From Bacteroidia bacterium (GTDB lineage: Bacteria; Bacteroidota; Bacteroidia; Chitinophagales; UBA2359), in the NCBI GenBank assembly GCA_030427245.1, contig JAUHXA010000020.1:1-64000 (forward strand): a DNA stretch of 64,000 nt, written 5' to 3'. A program made the translations under genes and the position numbers. Positions 42,491-61,717 of the stretch are shown here, piece by piece; the first letter of the stretch is position 1, and the number at the start of each line of letters is the position of its first letter. The notes under the pieces are model-generated. The model made no database searches, was not told the origin of the DNA, and saw only the letters and a list, made by a program, of their open reading frames with translations.

Positions 42491-42762
42491 TTTTACCCCC
42501 TCAAAAGCCTCCCTTTATGTGTCAATTTCCAAAAAAAGAAAATGTTTTTATTTTATTGTAAATCAATTTATTGAATGGGATAGGATTTCAAAAAAGCAAG
42601 ATAATGAGTAGATAAGTAAGTCAAATTTTGGGTTTTCTTTCCTTTGGCTTGTGCCTTCAATGGTTGAGATTTGGAAAAGAATGAGGTAATTGTCTGTAAA
42701 TAAATCCAATACGGCAATTATTTCAAATATTTATTTTTCCTAATTTTTTAAACCCATTTACA

Positions 42763-42823
42763 ATGAAACAAGCCCACGCTTTTTCTTCGAAGGCATTTTA
42801 TATATTATGCCCCCCCCCTATGT
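42763..42823 (+). other. Out-of-frame leader with a nine-C tract upstream of the giant adhesin
   Basis: An ATG at 42763 starts MKQAHAFSSKAFYILCPP. The run of nine C's is at 42810-42818. With nine C's this frame continues to a TAA soon after. Removing one C joins it to the downstream 1,647-codon frame, giving a good signal peptide. This may be a slip-strand phase-variation switch, or a sequencing error. Confidence 0.6.
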
Positions 42824-45800
42824 TTGAAACAAGTAATAATTACATGTATCTTATTAACAGTTAATTTTTCCAGTTCTCTTTTACAGGGAGCAACCTTTGA
42901 TTTAACAGTTCAAATTACAGAATCACCTGATGGAATATTGCACATACATTTGGATCCAGATGGAGATGTTCCTTCATTTGACGGTTGTGGCGGACAAGAA
43001 GATGATGGAATGAAACTTACATTATTGTTTAATTTTTATGATGAATTTAACAATTTGATTCATACCGTTGATTTGAAACAATCAGATGGAAACCCAATTT
43101 TATTTGATAATTTATCCAACCAAAGTCCTAAAAATTATTGGTTTCCCAAAAACCTTGTTTATGACTACTTTATTTACCTTCCTCCTTCAAACGTGTTAGA
43201 TGAAAATGGTGCAATAACTACATGTAACAGCGGAATTCCAAATATTGATAATATTACTAATGTTGAAATAATAACAAGTTTGAATATTATTCCTTGTCCA
43301 GCATGGCAATCTATCAGCACAAATGGCGTTTCTTTAAGTTTAAATTATTTAGGGGAATCATTAAGCAGTTTTAACTGTGAATCCAGTTCAAATCCTCAAG
43401 AATGTATAAATATTACTAGTGAGCATGATTTCAATGTACCTACTAATACTGGTACAAATCTCCCCGTAGGATATATTGATTTCGGAGTTGAGTTCTTTGA
43501 GGTAATAGCAGATTGTGAGGTTAATCAGTCTGCATGTCCCGAGAATACTAATGGAGTTTGGGTAACTTATGCAATTCCTTATGGAGGGTGCCCAGAATAT
43601 AGTCAAAATTGGACTTATGAAGACGGAAATTCAACCTATACAGCATGTCATTTCGCTGCTAATGAATTTGATTCTTCTCAAGTTGCAGATCCTGATAATC
43701 CTACAACATTTGAAGATACTTATGCTGTAAGTCCTGATTATCCATATTTTATTACAATAACAGATGCAATAGGAAATCAGATACAAGAAACACTAAATGC
43801 AGAAGCCATAGAGTCTGATTTGATAGATAAAGTGGAAAAAATAGATGAGTTTCATGATGAATGTGATAGTTGGGTTATTATTGAAATCTCTCCACAAGAT
43901 GTTGTTTTAAATAATCAAAACAGTGAATATGATATAAGTATTTCAGGTCCAGGTATTGCATCTATTCAAAATGGAAATCGTTATAAACGTAAAATTCAAG
44001 AGAATGGTACCTACATAATAAGCATAACCAATAAATTTTCAGGTTGTGGAGAGGAGGTAGAGATAGAAATCACGGAAATTAAAGAAATTCTTGATTTACC
44101 TGTAGTAGATGTAGGTTCAGATTTGTTTTTCTGTGAAGGTGGAACTGTGCCTACGATTATTGTAGATGCCGATTCTGAAGGGCTAAATGATTCAAATGTT
44201 ACTTATGAATGGTTAATTACAAGTCGAACTTATAGAGTGCAAACAGGTGAATGTAAAGGCTCTACAACGGTAGAAATTATTGAGGGAGGTACAGATAGTC
44301 AGTTGGTTCTTAGTTCAGAAAATATTTTGCTCAATCGCTGTTATATAGTGGAAGTGATTGCTACTAATCAAGATGGTTGCATCCAACACTTCTCAAATAA
44401 TGATACAAAGTCCATTATTTATGCAGAATCTCCGCCTGCAGAAATTTCTCCTCCTGTAATAGATGTAGATGCCTGTAACGGTGAAATGGCTATTCTAACA
44501 GCTAACGAACCTCCTTTTGAATTTATCACTTATTCTTACAAATGGTCTAATGGAGTAAAACATATAGATACACATGTTCATCAATCTGGTATTTATACTG
44601 TTACGGTCACATCTGATGTAACGGGATGCTCAGCCACGGACAAAATAAATGTAAGTATCAATGGACCAACTGCTTACATTGCAGGAACTGAAATACTTTG
44701 TGGAGATGAAATTACCTTAGAACTTATGGGTTATGCAACTGAATATTATTGGTCTACTGGTGAACAAACCCCAATAATCACTGTTTCGCAAGGCGGATTA
44801 TATACAGTTACTGTAACAGCAGATAATTGTTATTTAATCTCAACTGTTGAAGTAATAGATTCGAACTTTTCGCTTGATTTTGGTTTTGACCTTATGGAAG
44901 TTGATGCTTGTGAAGAAGATTATCCTGTTATCTTACAGCCTATTGGGCATCCTCAAGATTTTTTTACTTATAGCTGGTCATCAGGAGAAAATACTAACTC
45001 CATTGAAGTAGGAGCTCCTGGTCAATATACCTTAAATGCATATAGCCCAAATGGCTGTGTCAATCAAAAAACTATCACAGTTAATTTATTGGTAGGGCCA
45101 ATGGTTAGCTTAGGCAATACCAAAAGTATCTGCGAGGAAGAAAGTATCATTTTGGATGCGGGAACAAGTGCTAATACATATTTGTGGTCAAATGGAAGTC
45201 AACAACAAACTATTGAAGTAAATTCAGAGGGTATTTACAGTGTAACGGTGACAAAGGATGGATGTGACAGAACAGATGAAGTAGAGGTTATGCACTATGA
45301 GGCTCCTTTTGCAGATTTGGGAGGAGTTCTTTCTATTTGCAATGGAGAACCTATTTTGGTTGACGCTTTTCATCCCGATGCTGTGCATTATAAATGGTCT
45401 AATGAACCATTTACTTCCTCTGAATCTGCTAAATATATTTCAATTCCAGGAGATTATAGTGTGACCATTACCAACTCTCAAGGTTGTTCATCAGTTAGTG
45501 AAATAAATATTATTTCAGGGAATCCTTTTATAGATTTGGAAGTACAAGTACAAGATTGTAATAGTTGGGAAACTATTTTATCCACAATCGATTTTGCGGA
45601 TTTTGATTACTTATGGACAGATAAAAATGGGGTTATTTTAAGTGATAAAAATACCCTAACAATCACGACTTTAGGGGAGTACAATTTGTATGTGTCGCAA
45701 AACGGATGCACTGTTACTCAACAAATAGTTTTTGACAATGAAAGCTTTGGAGCAGTAAGTGCTTATACAATAGGTGCCAATGGCAACCCAATAGAAGAAA

Positions 45801-47767
45801 CTTGGACTACTACAAAAAATATTGACGGAATGATGACAGTAGCATCGGGAACAAAACTGACAATTGACGGAGCAATCGTACACTTTATGGATGAACAATC
45901 TGGGATTACGGTGGCGGAAGGAGGTTTTTTAGAAATCATTAATGGAGCAATTTTAAAAGGAAATCCCTGTAACGCAGAATACTGGTATGGTGTAGAGGTA
46001 GCAGGCAATACAAATATAGCACACGATGAGGATTTTTTGGTCAATGGTAACCCAAATCACGGTGCTGTATTAATAAACAGTGGGAGCATAATTCAAGATG
46101 CTATTACTGGTATTCAAACTATAAATGGCATTATACAGGCAGATGGTGCAAATTTTATTGATAATGAACTTGGCATAAAAATAGGAATAGCAGGTGAAAC
46201 AATCTTTTTTAATCAAGTAGGTGCTGGTAGTGCGAATATTATCGAAAACAACAATTTTGGCATTGAGTCTCCTATAAATAGTTCCCTTAAATTCATGGGT
46301 ATAGAAGTATATAATTATTTTCATTCAATTAAATTTATAGGCAATCATTTTTACAATATGAATCCTGTTCAACATAATGTTTTAGGAATTTCGGTAGTAA
46401 ATTCTAACTGCTATATGCATCATAATATTTTTGATGATTTGAGAATGGGGATTTCTATATTTGACTTAGTTAATGTATATTTCTCTAATATAGTAAATTA
46501 TAATCTTTTTAATAATACAGAAAAAGGGCTATTAATGGTATTTGGTTTAGTTCCTCAAGCCAATCATAATAATTTTGACAATATCCCTAATGGGATTCAT
46601 TCTACGGATACCTATGGTATATACAGCATCAACAGCCGCTTTATTATCAATAAAAATGATTTTCAAACTTCGGTGAATAACAACGAAATAAAGGGATTGG
46701 TAACCTCCCATACATGGGATAATTTCGTTCACATAAATGAAAACACTTTCGATGGAGCTTTTGGAGCAGCAACACAGTTTCAAGCTACTAACAACAATGT
46801 TTTATTGGAATGTAATGCCTATTCAAATGCACCTAAAATAGATTGGTACATTGCCGAAAATGGTTTACTCAATCAACAAGGAGATTGCCAAGGTATTTTC
46901 CTTCCTGCTTATGCAACAAACAATACTTGGCATTCTGAATCAACAGGCTATCACATTTACAAAGCAAGTAGCGGCAATTTCTTCATAGACCACGACCCAT
47001 GTTCTGAGCCTACATTGTTTAGCAGTAATGTAACTAAAAAAAATTGTGGCTATGTTAGTGAAACAGACTGTTGTATATTGGTGGAAACCATAGAAGATAC
47101 ACCTGATGATAGGGTTACACTTTCGCAAGACCTTTATCAACTATTGGAACAGGGAAATCAACAGGGTTTTATTAACTTACTGAATCAACAACAAGCAGAA
47201 TGGGCAGATAAGTTATTGGTGAGGGCTTATTTGGGTTGGAACGACAAAAGTAATGCCTCATTGGTTCTCAATCGTATTCCTCAGAATAATCCTGAAAATA
47301 TTGCTTTCAAGGACGTTTTTACCGCCCTCATCAATGCCAATCCGCAAATATCAGCCATTGATGAGGTTATGATTCGGGCTTACGCTCAATCCACCGACCT
47401 CGCTATTCAGTCTTTGGCACATACTGTATTAGCAAGTTATTTTGGAGAGATATTCGACTATGATACAGCTCCTGTTGTTATCTCATCCAATAAAAAAGAA
47501 ACTACACGTTTTGATGAGACAAGAACTTTTGATTTGATTCCCAATCCTAGTTCTTATCAGTTGCTTGTCCAATTAAATCAGCCAATAAGCGATGAAAAAG
47601 TTGTTTTTACCATTTACGATTTAACAGGAAAAATGATGAAAACGGTTAATCTTGCTCAACAAAAAGAAGCTATTGATATAGCTGATTTGGCAGTAGGTGT
47701 TTATTATTGTCAAATAAACCTCAATGGCAAACCTTCTAAAATCCAAAAATTGGCAATTGTCAGATAA
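42824..47767 (+). CDS. Giant T9SS-exported adhesin-like protein
   Basis: Counted from the TTG at 42824 the protein has 1647 residues (an upstream ATG at 42763 is out of frame by one base because of a nine-C run). Residues 1-22 look like a signal peptide (TCILLTVNFSSSLLQ). An N-terminal part is followed by about five PKD/Ig-like repeats of the WSTGEQTP...GGLYTVTVTADNC type (about 430-980), then a parallel beta-helix-like part (about 990-1370). A helical section follows, ending in the AYAQSTDLAIQSLAHTVLAS region. The T9SS sorting domain closes the protein (IPNPSSYQLLVQLNQP to KIQKLAIVR). It is likely a surface adhesin. Confidence 0.85.
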   Translation: MKQVIITCILLTVNFSSSLLQGATFDLTVQITESPDGILHIHLDPDGDVPSFDGCGGQEDDGMKLTLLFNFYDEFNNLIHTVDLKQSDGNPILFDNLSNQSPKNYWFPKNLVYDYFIYLPPSNVLDENGAITTCNSGIPNIDNITNVEIITSLNIIPCPAWQSISTNGVSLSLNYLGESLSSFNCESSSNPQECINITSEHDFNVPTNTGTNLPVGYIDFGVEFFEVIADCEVNQSACPENTNGVWVTYAIPYGGCPEYSQNWTYEDGNSTYTACHFAANEFDSSQVADPDNPTTFEDTYAVSPDYPYFITITDAIGNQIQETLNAEAIESDLIDKVEKIDEFHDECDSWVIIEISPQDVVLNNQNSEYDISISGPGIASIQNGNRYKRKIQENGTYIISITNKFSGCGEEVEIEITEIKEILDLPVVDVGSDLFFCEGGTVPTIIVDADSEGLNDSNVTYEWLITSRTYRVQTGECKGSTTVEIIEGGTDSQLVLSSENILLNRCYIVEVIATNQDGCIQHFSNNDTKSIIYAESPPAEISPPVIDVDACNGEMAILTANEPPFEFITYSYKWSNGVKHIDTHVHQSGIYTVTVTSDVTGCSATDKINVSINGPTAYIAGTEILCGDEITLELMGYATEYYWSTGEQTPIITVSQGGLYTVTVTADNCYLISTVEVIDSNFSLDFGFDLMEVDACEEDYPVILQPIGHPQDFFTYSWSSGENTNSIEVGAPGQYTLNAYSPNGCVNQKTITVNLLVGPMVSLGNTKSICEEESIILDAGTSANTYLWSNGSQQQTIEVNSEGIYSVTVTKDGCDRTDEVEVMHYEAPFADLGGVLSICNGEPILVDAFHPDAVHYKWSNEPFTSSESAKYISIPGDYSVTITNSQGCSSVSEINIISGNPFIDLEVQVQDCNSWETILSTIDFADFDYLWTDKNGVILSDKNTLTITTLGEYNLYVSQNGCTVTQQIVFDNESFGAVSAYTIGANGNPIEETWTTTKNIDGMMTVASGTKLTIDGAIVHFMDEQSGITVAEGGFLEIINGAILKGNPCNAEYWYGVEVAGNTNIAHDEDFLVNGNPNHGAVLINSGSIIQDAITGIQTINGIIQADGANFIDNELGIKIGIAGETIFFNQVGAGSANIIENNNFGIESPINSSLKFMGIEVYNYFHSIKFIGNHFYNMNPVQHNVLGISVVNSNCYMHHNIFDDLRMGISIFDLVNVYFSNIVNYNLFNNTEKGLLMVFGLVPQANHNNFDNIPNGIHSTDTYGIYSINSRFIINKNDFQTSVNNNEIKGLVTSHTWDNFVHINENTFDGAFGAATQFQATNNNVLLECNAYSNAPKIDWYIAENGLLNQQGDCQGIFLPAYATNNTWHSESTGYHIYKASSGNFFIDHDPCSEPTLFSSNVTKKNCGYVSETDCCILVETIEDTPDDRVTLSQDLYQLLEQGNQQGFINLLNQQQAEWADKLLVRAYLGWNDKSNASLVLNRIPQNNPENIAFKDVFTALINANPQISAIDEVMIRAYAQSTDLAIQSLAHTVLASYFGEIFDYDTAPVVISSNKKETTRFDETRTFDLIPNPSSYQLLVQLNQPISDEKVVFTIYDLTGKMMKTVNLAQQKEAIDIADLAVGVYYCQINLNGKPSKIQKLAIVR

Positions 47768-60477: not shown

Positions 60478-60520
60478 TGTTGATATTATTTTTTCTATTG
60501 TTATTTTTGATTATTATTTT

Positions 60521-60565
60521 GATGCTGTTGATGCTGTTGATGCTGTTGATGCTGTTGATGCTGTT
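60521..60565. repeat. Five tandem copies of a 9-bp unit
   Basis: GATGCTGTT is repeated five times without a mismatch, followed by a degenerate sixth (GATTCTGGA). It lies in the cysD-cysN gap. Confidence 0.95.
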
Positions 60566-60632
60566 GATTCTGGATATAAGTACTTTTTTTTCTAAAACGG
60601 AAACATTCTTATAAAAACTATAGTATCGCCTA

Positions 60633-60676
60633 AGCATCCACCGAGCATCCACCGAGCATCCATCGAGCATCCATCG
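60633..60676. repeat. Four tandem copies of an 11-bp unit
   Basis: AGCATCCAYCG occurs four times (two with C, two with T at the Y position), ending 3 bp before the cysD stop codon region. It is a second array in the same gap. Confidence 0.95.
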
Positions 60677-60679
60677 AGC

Positions 60680-61585
60680 CTAAAAATACCCTTCTTTCTT
60701 CCGATCCTCCATTGAAGTTTCCGAGCGCTTATCATCCGCCCGTCCACCACGTTCGGTCATTCTAGTAGCCGCCACTTCGTCAATGATTTTTTCCAAAGTA
60801 TCTGCATCAGAAAGGCTTGCACCAGTACTTGTCATATCCCCAATCGTTCTAAAACGAACCTCCATATCCTTTACTTCTTCTCCTTCAATCTCAGGCAAAA
60901 CATCAGATTTGTAGAGAATAATGCCATTTCTGACCACACAAGAACGGGTATGTGAAAAATACAAAGAAGGAATGTCGATTTTTTCGTGTAGAATGTACTG
61001 CCAAATATCCATTTCTGTCCAGTTACTCAATGGGAAAACACGGAAATGTTCCCCCATACGCTTTCTACCATTGAAGATATTCCACAATTCGGGGCGTTGA
61101 TTTTTTGGATCCCACTGCCCAAAATCATCACGATGCGAAAAGAAACGCTCTTTTGCTCTTGCTTTCTCCTCATCACGCCTTGCACCACCCAAAGCAGCGT
61201 CAAACTGATTTTTTTCGAGAGCCTCCAATAAAGTTGTCGTTTGCAATCGAATACGACTGGCATTGACTCCTTTTTCTTCTACTGCCGTACCTTGATTGAT
61301 GGAATCTTGAACATGTCCGACAATCAATCGAAGCCCCAATTTTTTCATTAACTCATCACGAAAGGCAATAGTTTCGGGAAAGTTATGTCCTGTATCAACA
61401 TGCAACAAAGGGAAAGGCAGTTTTGCAGGATAGAAAGCTTTTCGAGCCAAATGAAGCATCGTAATCGAATCTTTTCCGCCCGAAAACATCAGTACAGGAT
61501 TCTCAAATTGTGCTGCTACTTCTCGAATGACATAAATGCCCTCTGCCTCTAATTCTTTGAGGTGACTTAAATTATAGGAAATCAT
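60680..61585 (-). CDS. cysD: Sulfate adenylyltransferase small subunit
   Basis: A 301-residue ATP-pyrophosphatase-type enzyme. The PP-loop FSGGKDSITMLHL is near residue 34, and GGARRDEEKARAKERFFSHRD (position about 153-174) is characteristic. The C terminus TERGGRADDKRSETSMEDRKKEGYF is the conserved CysD ending. It forms the ATP sulfurylase with CysN. It lies 132 bp after cysC, in a gap with tandem repeats. It is the middle gene of the sulfate-activation cluster. Confidence 0.96.
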   Translation of the reverse strand: MISYNLSHLKELEAEGIYVIREVAAQFENPVLMFSGGKDSITMLHLARKAFYPAKLPFPLLHVDTGHNFPETIAFRDELMKKLGLRLIVGHVQDSINQGTAVEEKGVNASRIRLQTTTLLEALEKNQFDAALGGARRDEEKARAKERFFSHRDDFGQWDPKNQRPELWNIFNGRKRMGEHFRVFPLSNWTEMDIWQYILHEKIDIPSLYFSHTRSCVVRNGIILYKSDVLPEIEGEEVKDMEVRFRTIGDMTSTGASLSDADTLEKIIDEVAATRMTERGGRADDKRSETSMEDRKKEGYF

Positions 61586-61590
61586 TTTTT

Positions 61591-61650
61591 ATTGCTGTAT
61601 TGTTAAATTGTTGTATTGCTGCATTGTTAAATTGTCGTATTGTTGCATCG
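61591..61650. repeat. Imperfect 24-bp tandem repeat, 2.5 copies
   Basis: ATTGCTGTATTGTTAAATTG and its next copy (61591-61614 and 61615-61638) differ by two bases over 24. A part copy ends at about 61650. It fills the cysC-cysD gap. Confidence 0.8.
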
Positions 61651-61717
61651 TTTTTAGGTATAAAACCATAAAGCAATTCAGCCATAAAACCATCTAACCG
61701 TTCAACAATGAGACAAT

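Follow-up and report, generated by a model that had tools for sequence, protein, structure and literature searches.

Poly-C and other simple repeats as a candidate slipped-strand switch in a family of type IX secreted proteins of Bacteroidota

A gene at 42763-47767 of the 64,000-nucleotide stretch of Bacteroidota DNA analysed here (the window) is very probably a contingency locus, one of a family of type IX secretion system (T9SS) cargo genes that, judging from sequence comparison, probably undergo phase variation by slipped-strand mispairing. Translation would start at ATG 42763, in a leader that appears to have been copied, together with its promoter region, ahead of several T9SS cargo genes. 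A run of nine C's (C9) between this leader and the core of the signal peptide would gain or lose units through slipped-strand mispairing during replication. A tract of the right length would join the leader to the signal peptide and allow the protein to be secreted, while a wrong length would end translation after about 30 codons; in the present assembly the window gene would be OFF. We infer that the tract differs in length between cells, that expression tracks this length, and that the protein functions on the surface of the cell. Table 1 collects the features and the repeats found in related genomes.

Table 1. Features of the proposed switch region, repeats at other loci of the same genome, and repeats in related genomes (G-numbered; the entry for each homologue describes the repeat between its start and signal peptide).
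Feature	Location	Strand	Basis
Shared promoter/5'UTR/leader cassette, ~207 bp	42620..42826	+	homology to C81 (91%), C140 (80%)
Leader frame at the assembled length of 9 C, 33 codons + stop	42763..42864	+	sequence
TTTTATATATT, unchanged in all five own-genome copies	42796..42806	+	pattern search
C9 homopolymer, proposed slippage switch	42810..42818	+	sequence, frame analysis, shuffles
TATGTTTG, invariant cassette 3' end	42819..42826	+	five own-genome copies
Predicted signal-peptide region, large frame, LKQVIITCILLTVNFSSSLLQGA	42824..42892	+	eye and hydropathy only
Gene for giant secreted protein, with weak central PKD-like repeats followed by C-terminal module and T9SS tail	42824..47767	+	domain searches
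C-terminal module, ~655 aa, common to repeat-switched family (proposed)	45800..47764	+	homology
T9SS C-terminal sorting domain PF18962/TIGR04183	47540..47758	+	profile match
Downstream T9SS-tailed gene, ~494 aa	47841..49325	+	domain and neighbourhood comparison
(CA)5, start codon to signal peptide, M43-protease T9SS paralogue C97	L088:4200-4600	-	frame analysis
G11 (coding strand) in lipoprotein gene C61, between ATGTTTTCTAAATTGAAAAATACTAC and signal peptide TIFLLTLIIVFLYNC	L002:4032-4042		
Homologue, G9, in frame	G002:C6		
Homologue, G8, out of frame	G004:C449		
Homologue, G11, start off contig	G013:C484		
Homologue, C11	G017:C160		
Homologue, C9	G017:C126		
Homologue, C7	G017:C92		
Homologue, C6, in frame	G017:C44		
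Homologue, C7	G018:C156		
Homologue, octamer GCCGACCT x8, out of frame	G019:C60 (L124)		
Homologue, octamer GCCGACCT x6, out of frame	G018:C10 (L126)		
Homologue, 7-mer x6	G017:C39		
Homologue, G9	G019:C250		
Homologue, G10, in frame	G019:C61		
Non-homologous secreted gene, C9, in frame	G002:C100		
Non-homologous secreted gene, C9	G016:C24		
Non-homologous secreted gene, G9, out of frame	G004:C278		

Direct reading of the window confirmed that the leader from ATG 42763 meets a tract of exactly nine C's, as the first-pass annotation had described. The frame encodes MKQAHAFSSKAFYILC before entering the tract, and the product as assembled is MKQAHAFSSKAFYILCPPPMFETSNNYMYLINS*, 33 amino acids. The earlier statement that this frame ends a few codons beyond the tract is right in that it does end early, but the stop lies 14 codons past the last C. 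The large frame of 1,647 codons opens with TTG and is not the frame of ATG 42763; removing one C, or adding two, fuses the two into a product of 1,667 or 1,668 amino acids. The proposal that eight C's would join them thus proved correct, and the 1,667-residue fusion carries a predicted signal peptide as well as the T9SS sorting tail. By hydropathy, the hydrophobic core VIITCILLT belongs to the large frame and is connected to an ATG only at another number of C's; signal peptides were assessed by hydropathy and eye throughout. A change of one repeat unit would toggle the reading frame of a predicted secreted protein.

Runs of this length are in excess in the genome, a 187-contig, 7.58-Mb draft of unstated sequencing technology in which the number of C's in a run may be wrong by one. 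Counting C/G runs only, 45 are of exactly seven, six of exactly eight, and nine of at least nine. All nine of the longest class sit at a gene start or 5' of one, whereas of 28 sampled runs of seven or eight (22 of seven, six of eight), 25 fall within reading frames and only three in such a position. The contrast in location gives a Fisher exact p=1.8e-6, an overstatement of its true strength, as some of the long runs belong to cassette copies that are not independent; it remains when about five independent origins are allowed. Dinucleotide shuffling of the window produced a mean of 0.14 C/G runs of nine per shuffle, with at least one in 10 of 100 shuffles. The C9 tract is, in this setting, an over-represented repeat of a mutable kind. 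No comparable start-site repeat occurred among the 44 other window ORFs (ATG-started, at least 150 amino acids). Elsewhere in the window, a 115-bp tandem repeat (3.2 copies, 99% identity) occupies the left edge at 1-368, and short tandem arrays with units of 9, 11, 13, and 24 bp flank ORF 60680-61585 on either side, within 60485-61652.

A pattern search for TTTTATATATT, eight or nine C's, and TATGTTTG found five copies in the same genome and no match with the reversed control. Four of the nine long C/G runs, that of the window included, have these flanks in common. About 207 bp of cassette are common to C79 (the window), C81, and C140 at identities of 78-91%; whichever two of the three are compared, homology stops with the final base of TATGTTTG. 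Although C79 and C81 are 91% identical over the cassette, the genes behind show no direct similarity. A second cassette of 288 bp, with a core identical to that of the first, is common to C66 and C5. Taken from sequence, the cassette looks like a promoter and leader unit copied ahead of different secreted-protein genes, presumably by gene conversion or recombination. TTTTATATATT and TATGTTTG are identical in the five copies, although the codons between the ATG and the core have diverged, which hints at a constraint on the DNA itself.

As assembled, the five copies differ in state. Two are in frame: C5, with eight C's, is open from the ATG through the tract (MKRFCTFSFFREFYILPPPLCLKF...), and so is C140, with nine C's and one base fewer ahead of them (MKQVHFSFLKTFYILSPPLCLVILLQ...). 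C79 and C66 are each one C out of frame, and C81, with a C9 tract, is out of frame and otherwise broken. At this last locus (L036) the cassette precedes a degraded gene whose ORF is split again further on, and a short tandem repeat lies within the signal-peptide region. In a draft of unstated technology it might be supposed that the homopolymer of the window was miscounted and the gene, with a true length of eight, is always on. We consider this improbable, since copies within one assembly carry both eight and nine C's, and since the multi-base repeats of homologues, likewise out of frame, would go unexplained by a simple miscount.

Repeats of other kinds occupy the same position at other loci of the genome. 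C97, a paralogue with 34% identity to the C-terminal module of the window protein, has (CA)5 between ATGAAACATTTTAACAAGTCC and the signal peptide, one unit out of frame. The G11 of lipoprotein gene C61 likewise leaves the gene one unit out of frame, and that frame has no other start codon. In C88, C9 closely follows the signal peptide and is in frame. Three further long runs, at C18, C82, and C99, are upstream of secreted-protein genes; the C9 runs of C82 (L005:3936-3944) and C99 (L007:5001-5009) are some 90-100 bp 5' of long secreted-protein genes and are possibly promoter-located switches.

We reached relatives through the protein family, not through the leader DNA. The C-terminal module was found in 14 of 20 genomes of the family and in one other among 149 of the order, making it nearly confined to the family; a scan of a wider contig collection for the module found no relative. 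The exact leader pattern had no match in the 20 family genomes, nor in the wider collection, from which the source genome or a very near one may be absent, and a leader search with a sequence-only model in the 149 order genomes gave matches at chance level only. Repeats were scored where 5' ends were reachable. Homologues in genera g3, g5, g10, and g13 carry C6-11, G8-11, or a heptamer or octamer array in the interval from start codon to signal peptide, and a repeat is present in about 19 of the 27 homologues whose 5' end could be read (own genome included, C81 and G013:C484 counted). Four genes of genus g13 have in common a cassette of the form ATGAAACAACACATTA-Cn-...TATGTATTA, with n = 9, 7, 6, and 7. 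The length of Cn changes while its flanks stay constant, which is a mark of slippage.

Among repeat-bearing genes, seven are in frame, 15 are one or two units out, and one is otherwise broken, so that ON as well as OFF states occur among copies and relatives. Of the 22 genes that could be evaluated, the 7 in frame make up close to the one third expected under free repeat drift, a proportion that alone does not discriminate between models. Among the points against slippage switching are that run lengths in drafts can be wrong and that eight homologues with readable starts have no repeat (C12 of the own genome, G010:C37, G018:C47, G007:C117, G007:C167, G007:C152, G003:C274, and G012:C242). Poly-C runs in G004, G011, and G016 are in many cases intergenic, within genes, or at contig ends, and not every such run in relatives is a switch. 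In homologue G007:C196 (L142), a G11 lies inside the protease-like part, and the frame is split there, not at the start.

What the repeats have in common bears on mechanism. If RNA polymerase slipped, or ribosomes shifted frame, at C9, each cell would have a steady, low level of in-frame product and no heritable switch. Polymerase slippage is known to rescue, in part, poly-A tract errors in Buchnera (PMC2831843), and the conserved bases flanking the tract might serve as a recoding signal. However, these processes would act on homopolymers alone, whereas members of this gene family have CA, 7-mer, and 8-mer repeats at the corresponding site, and we think such an explanation unlikely. DNA slippage is favored because no other process would apply to repeats with units of one, two, seven, and eight nucleotides alike. 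The earlier suggestion of a slip-strand switch thus gains support from the differing frame states of one cassette and from the poly-G, CA, 7-mer, and 8-mer repeats at the equivalent spot.

A further question is whether the tract sets the reading frame. TATGTTTG includes an out-of-frame ATG at 42820 and the TTG at 42824, which the first-pass annotation had offered as an alternative start; the upstream ATG frame would then be no more than a small ORF, either regulatory or accidental, with the tract frame-neutral. For the window gene the proposal has merit, as the product would begin MKQVIITCILLTVNFSSSLLQGA, a good signal peptide, and TTG is likewise followed by Lys or Arg in C66, C5, and C81. 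It fails in C140, where the TTG start would leave MVILLQLF and no positive charge, whereas reading from the ATG meets no stop across the tract. A C9 immediately 5' of a start codon would also be unusual. The models are told apart by four out-of-frame genes (C97, C61, G004:C278, and G004:C449), which have no usable alternative start: every start codon that preserves the signal peptide requires passage through the repeat. There is only a small chance that TTG 42824 is the real start, but under slippage switching it could perhaps allow leaky expression of the window gene in the OFF state.

The tract could instead be a promoter spacer whose number of C's tunes transcription, as in Neisseria porA and opc, with TATGTTTG serving as the Bacteroidota -7 box (TAnnTTTG). 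The match to TAnnTTTG is exact and invariant across the five copies; that motif, however, is common here (99 sites against 79 expected). A -33 TTG is absent at the right distance, no ATG, GTG, or TTG further downstream could start the window gene with its signal peptide preserved, and the genus g13 cassettes read TATGTATT, so that the motif is not conserved in other genera. We rejected this model as very improbable.

The protein behind the candidate switch of the window gene has a C-terminal Por_Secre_tail sorting domain, as expected of T9SS cargo, scoring 38.8 bits against PF18962 (cut-off 27) and 32.1 bits against TIGR04183 (cut-off 23). This tail is its sole significant domain. Its first-pass label as a giant adhesin gained no support: searches of Pfam and NCBIfam found no adhesin family, PDB gave no match, and no homology to an SprB-like gliding adhesin emerged from them. 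Single-sequence structure prediction of 45713-47179 reached a pLDDT of 34, at which the fold of the C-terminal module is not predictable. Across family members, the shared C-terminal module and T9SS tail are joined to differing N-terminal parts, where C79 and C140 have weak PKD-like repeats, and C5, C66, and C97 have an M43 metalloprotease domain. T9SS-type genes of about 500 amino acids lie 3' of C79, C81, C140, and C66, and similar genes follow other family members.

Contingency loci that carry a homopolymer near the 5' end have been amply described (PMC2831843, PMC6321876, PMC5084427). The closest parallel is the sortase-pilus G-tract of Bifidobacterium breve, where replication slippage was demonstrated by deep sequencing and where, as here, a homopolymer lies between a Sec-signal ORF and the body of a surface protein and its length decides whether they are joined (PMC9187656). 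That system concerns Gram-positive sortase pili (PMC9187656); ours concerns T9SS cargo in Bacteroidota and, unlike it, has one leader cassette before several genes and several repeat unit sizes. Campylobacter, Helicobacter, and Neisseria offer C/G tracts of at least 7 early in surface-related genes, ON/OFF switching by frameshift, and many loci per genome (PMC6321876, PMC5084427, PMC2823697). These are mostly host-adapted pathogens, and the genes often encode glycosyltransferases, whereas the present repeats belong to a Bacteroidota family and hold one set position ahead of the signal-peptide core. Within Bacteroidota, Bacteroides fragilis shares ON/OFF surface variation, but there recombinases invert promoters (PMC11868660), in contrast to the repeat-length switch proposed here; a 2025 review of phase variation covers Bacteroides via invertible genes. 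Open-access literature yielded no report combining Saprospiraceae (our guess at the family name) with phase variation, and the few papers there that bring type IX secretion and phase variation together seem to describe no such switch. The class of mechanism is known; its occurrence among T9SS cargo genes of Bacteroidota seems, in the open-access literature, to be without a report.

For some 20 genes, tract length, frame, and N terminus can be predicted, and annotation based on drafts risks calling such genes pseudogenes or assigning them wrong starts. As far as sequence can suggest, the switch probably selects, from among several large secreted proteins, those that a cell produces. We lean, with some reserve, toward a family-wide system, in which slippery promoter-leader cassettes would be copied before PKD-like or M43 bodies, the repeat units placed at the one site would differ between lineages, and each cell would display its own chance selection of large surface proteins. 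Phase variation in Bacteroidota has so far been discussed mainly as DNA inversion; in several genera of this group, it appears that repeat slippage would randomize the large T9SS proteins shown by each cell.
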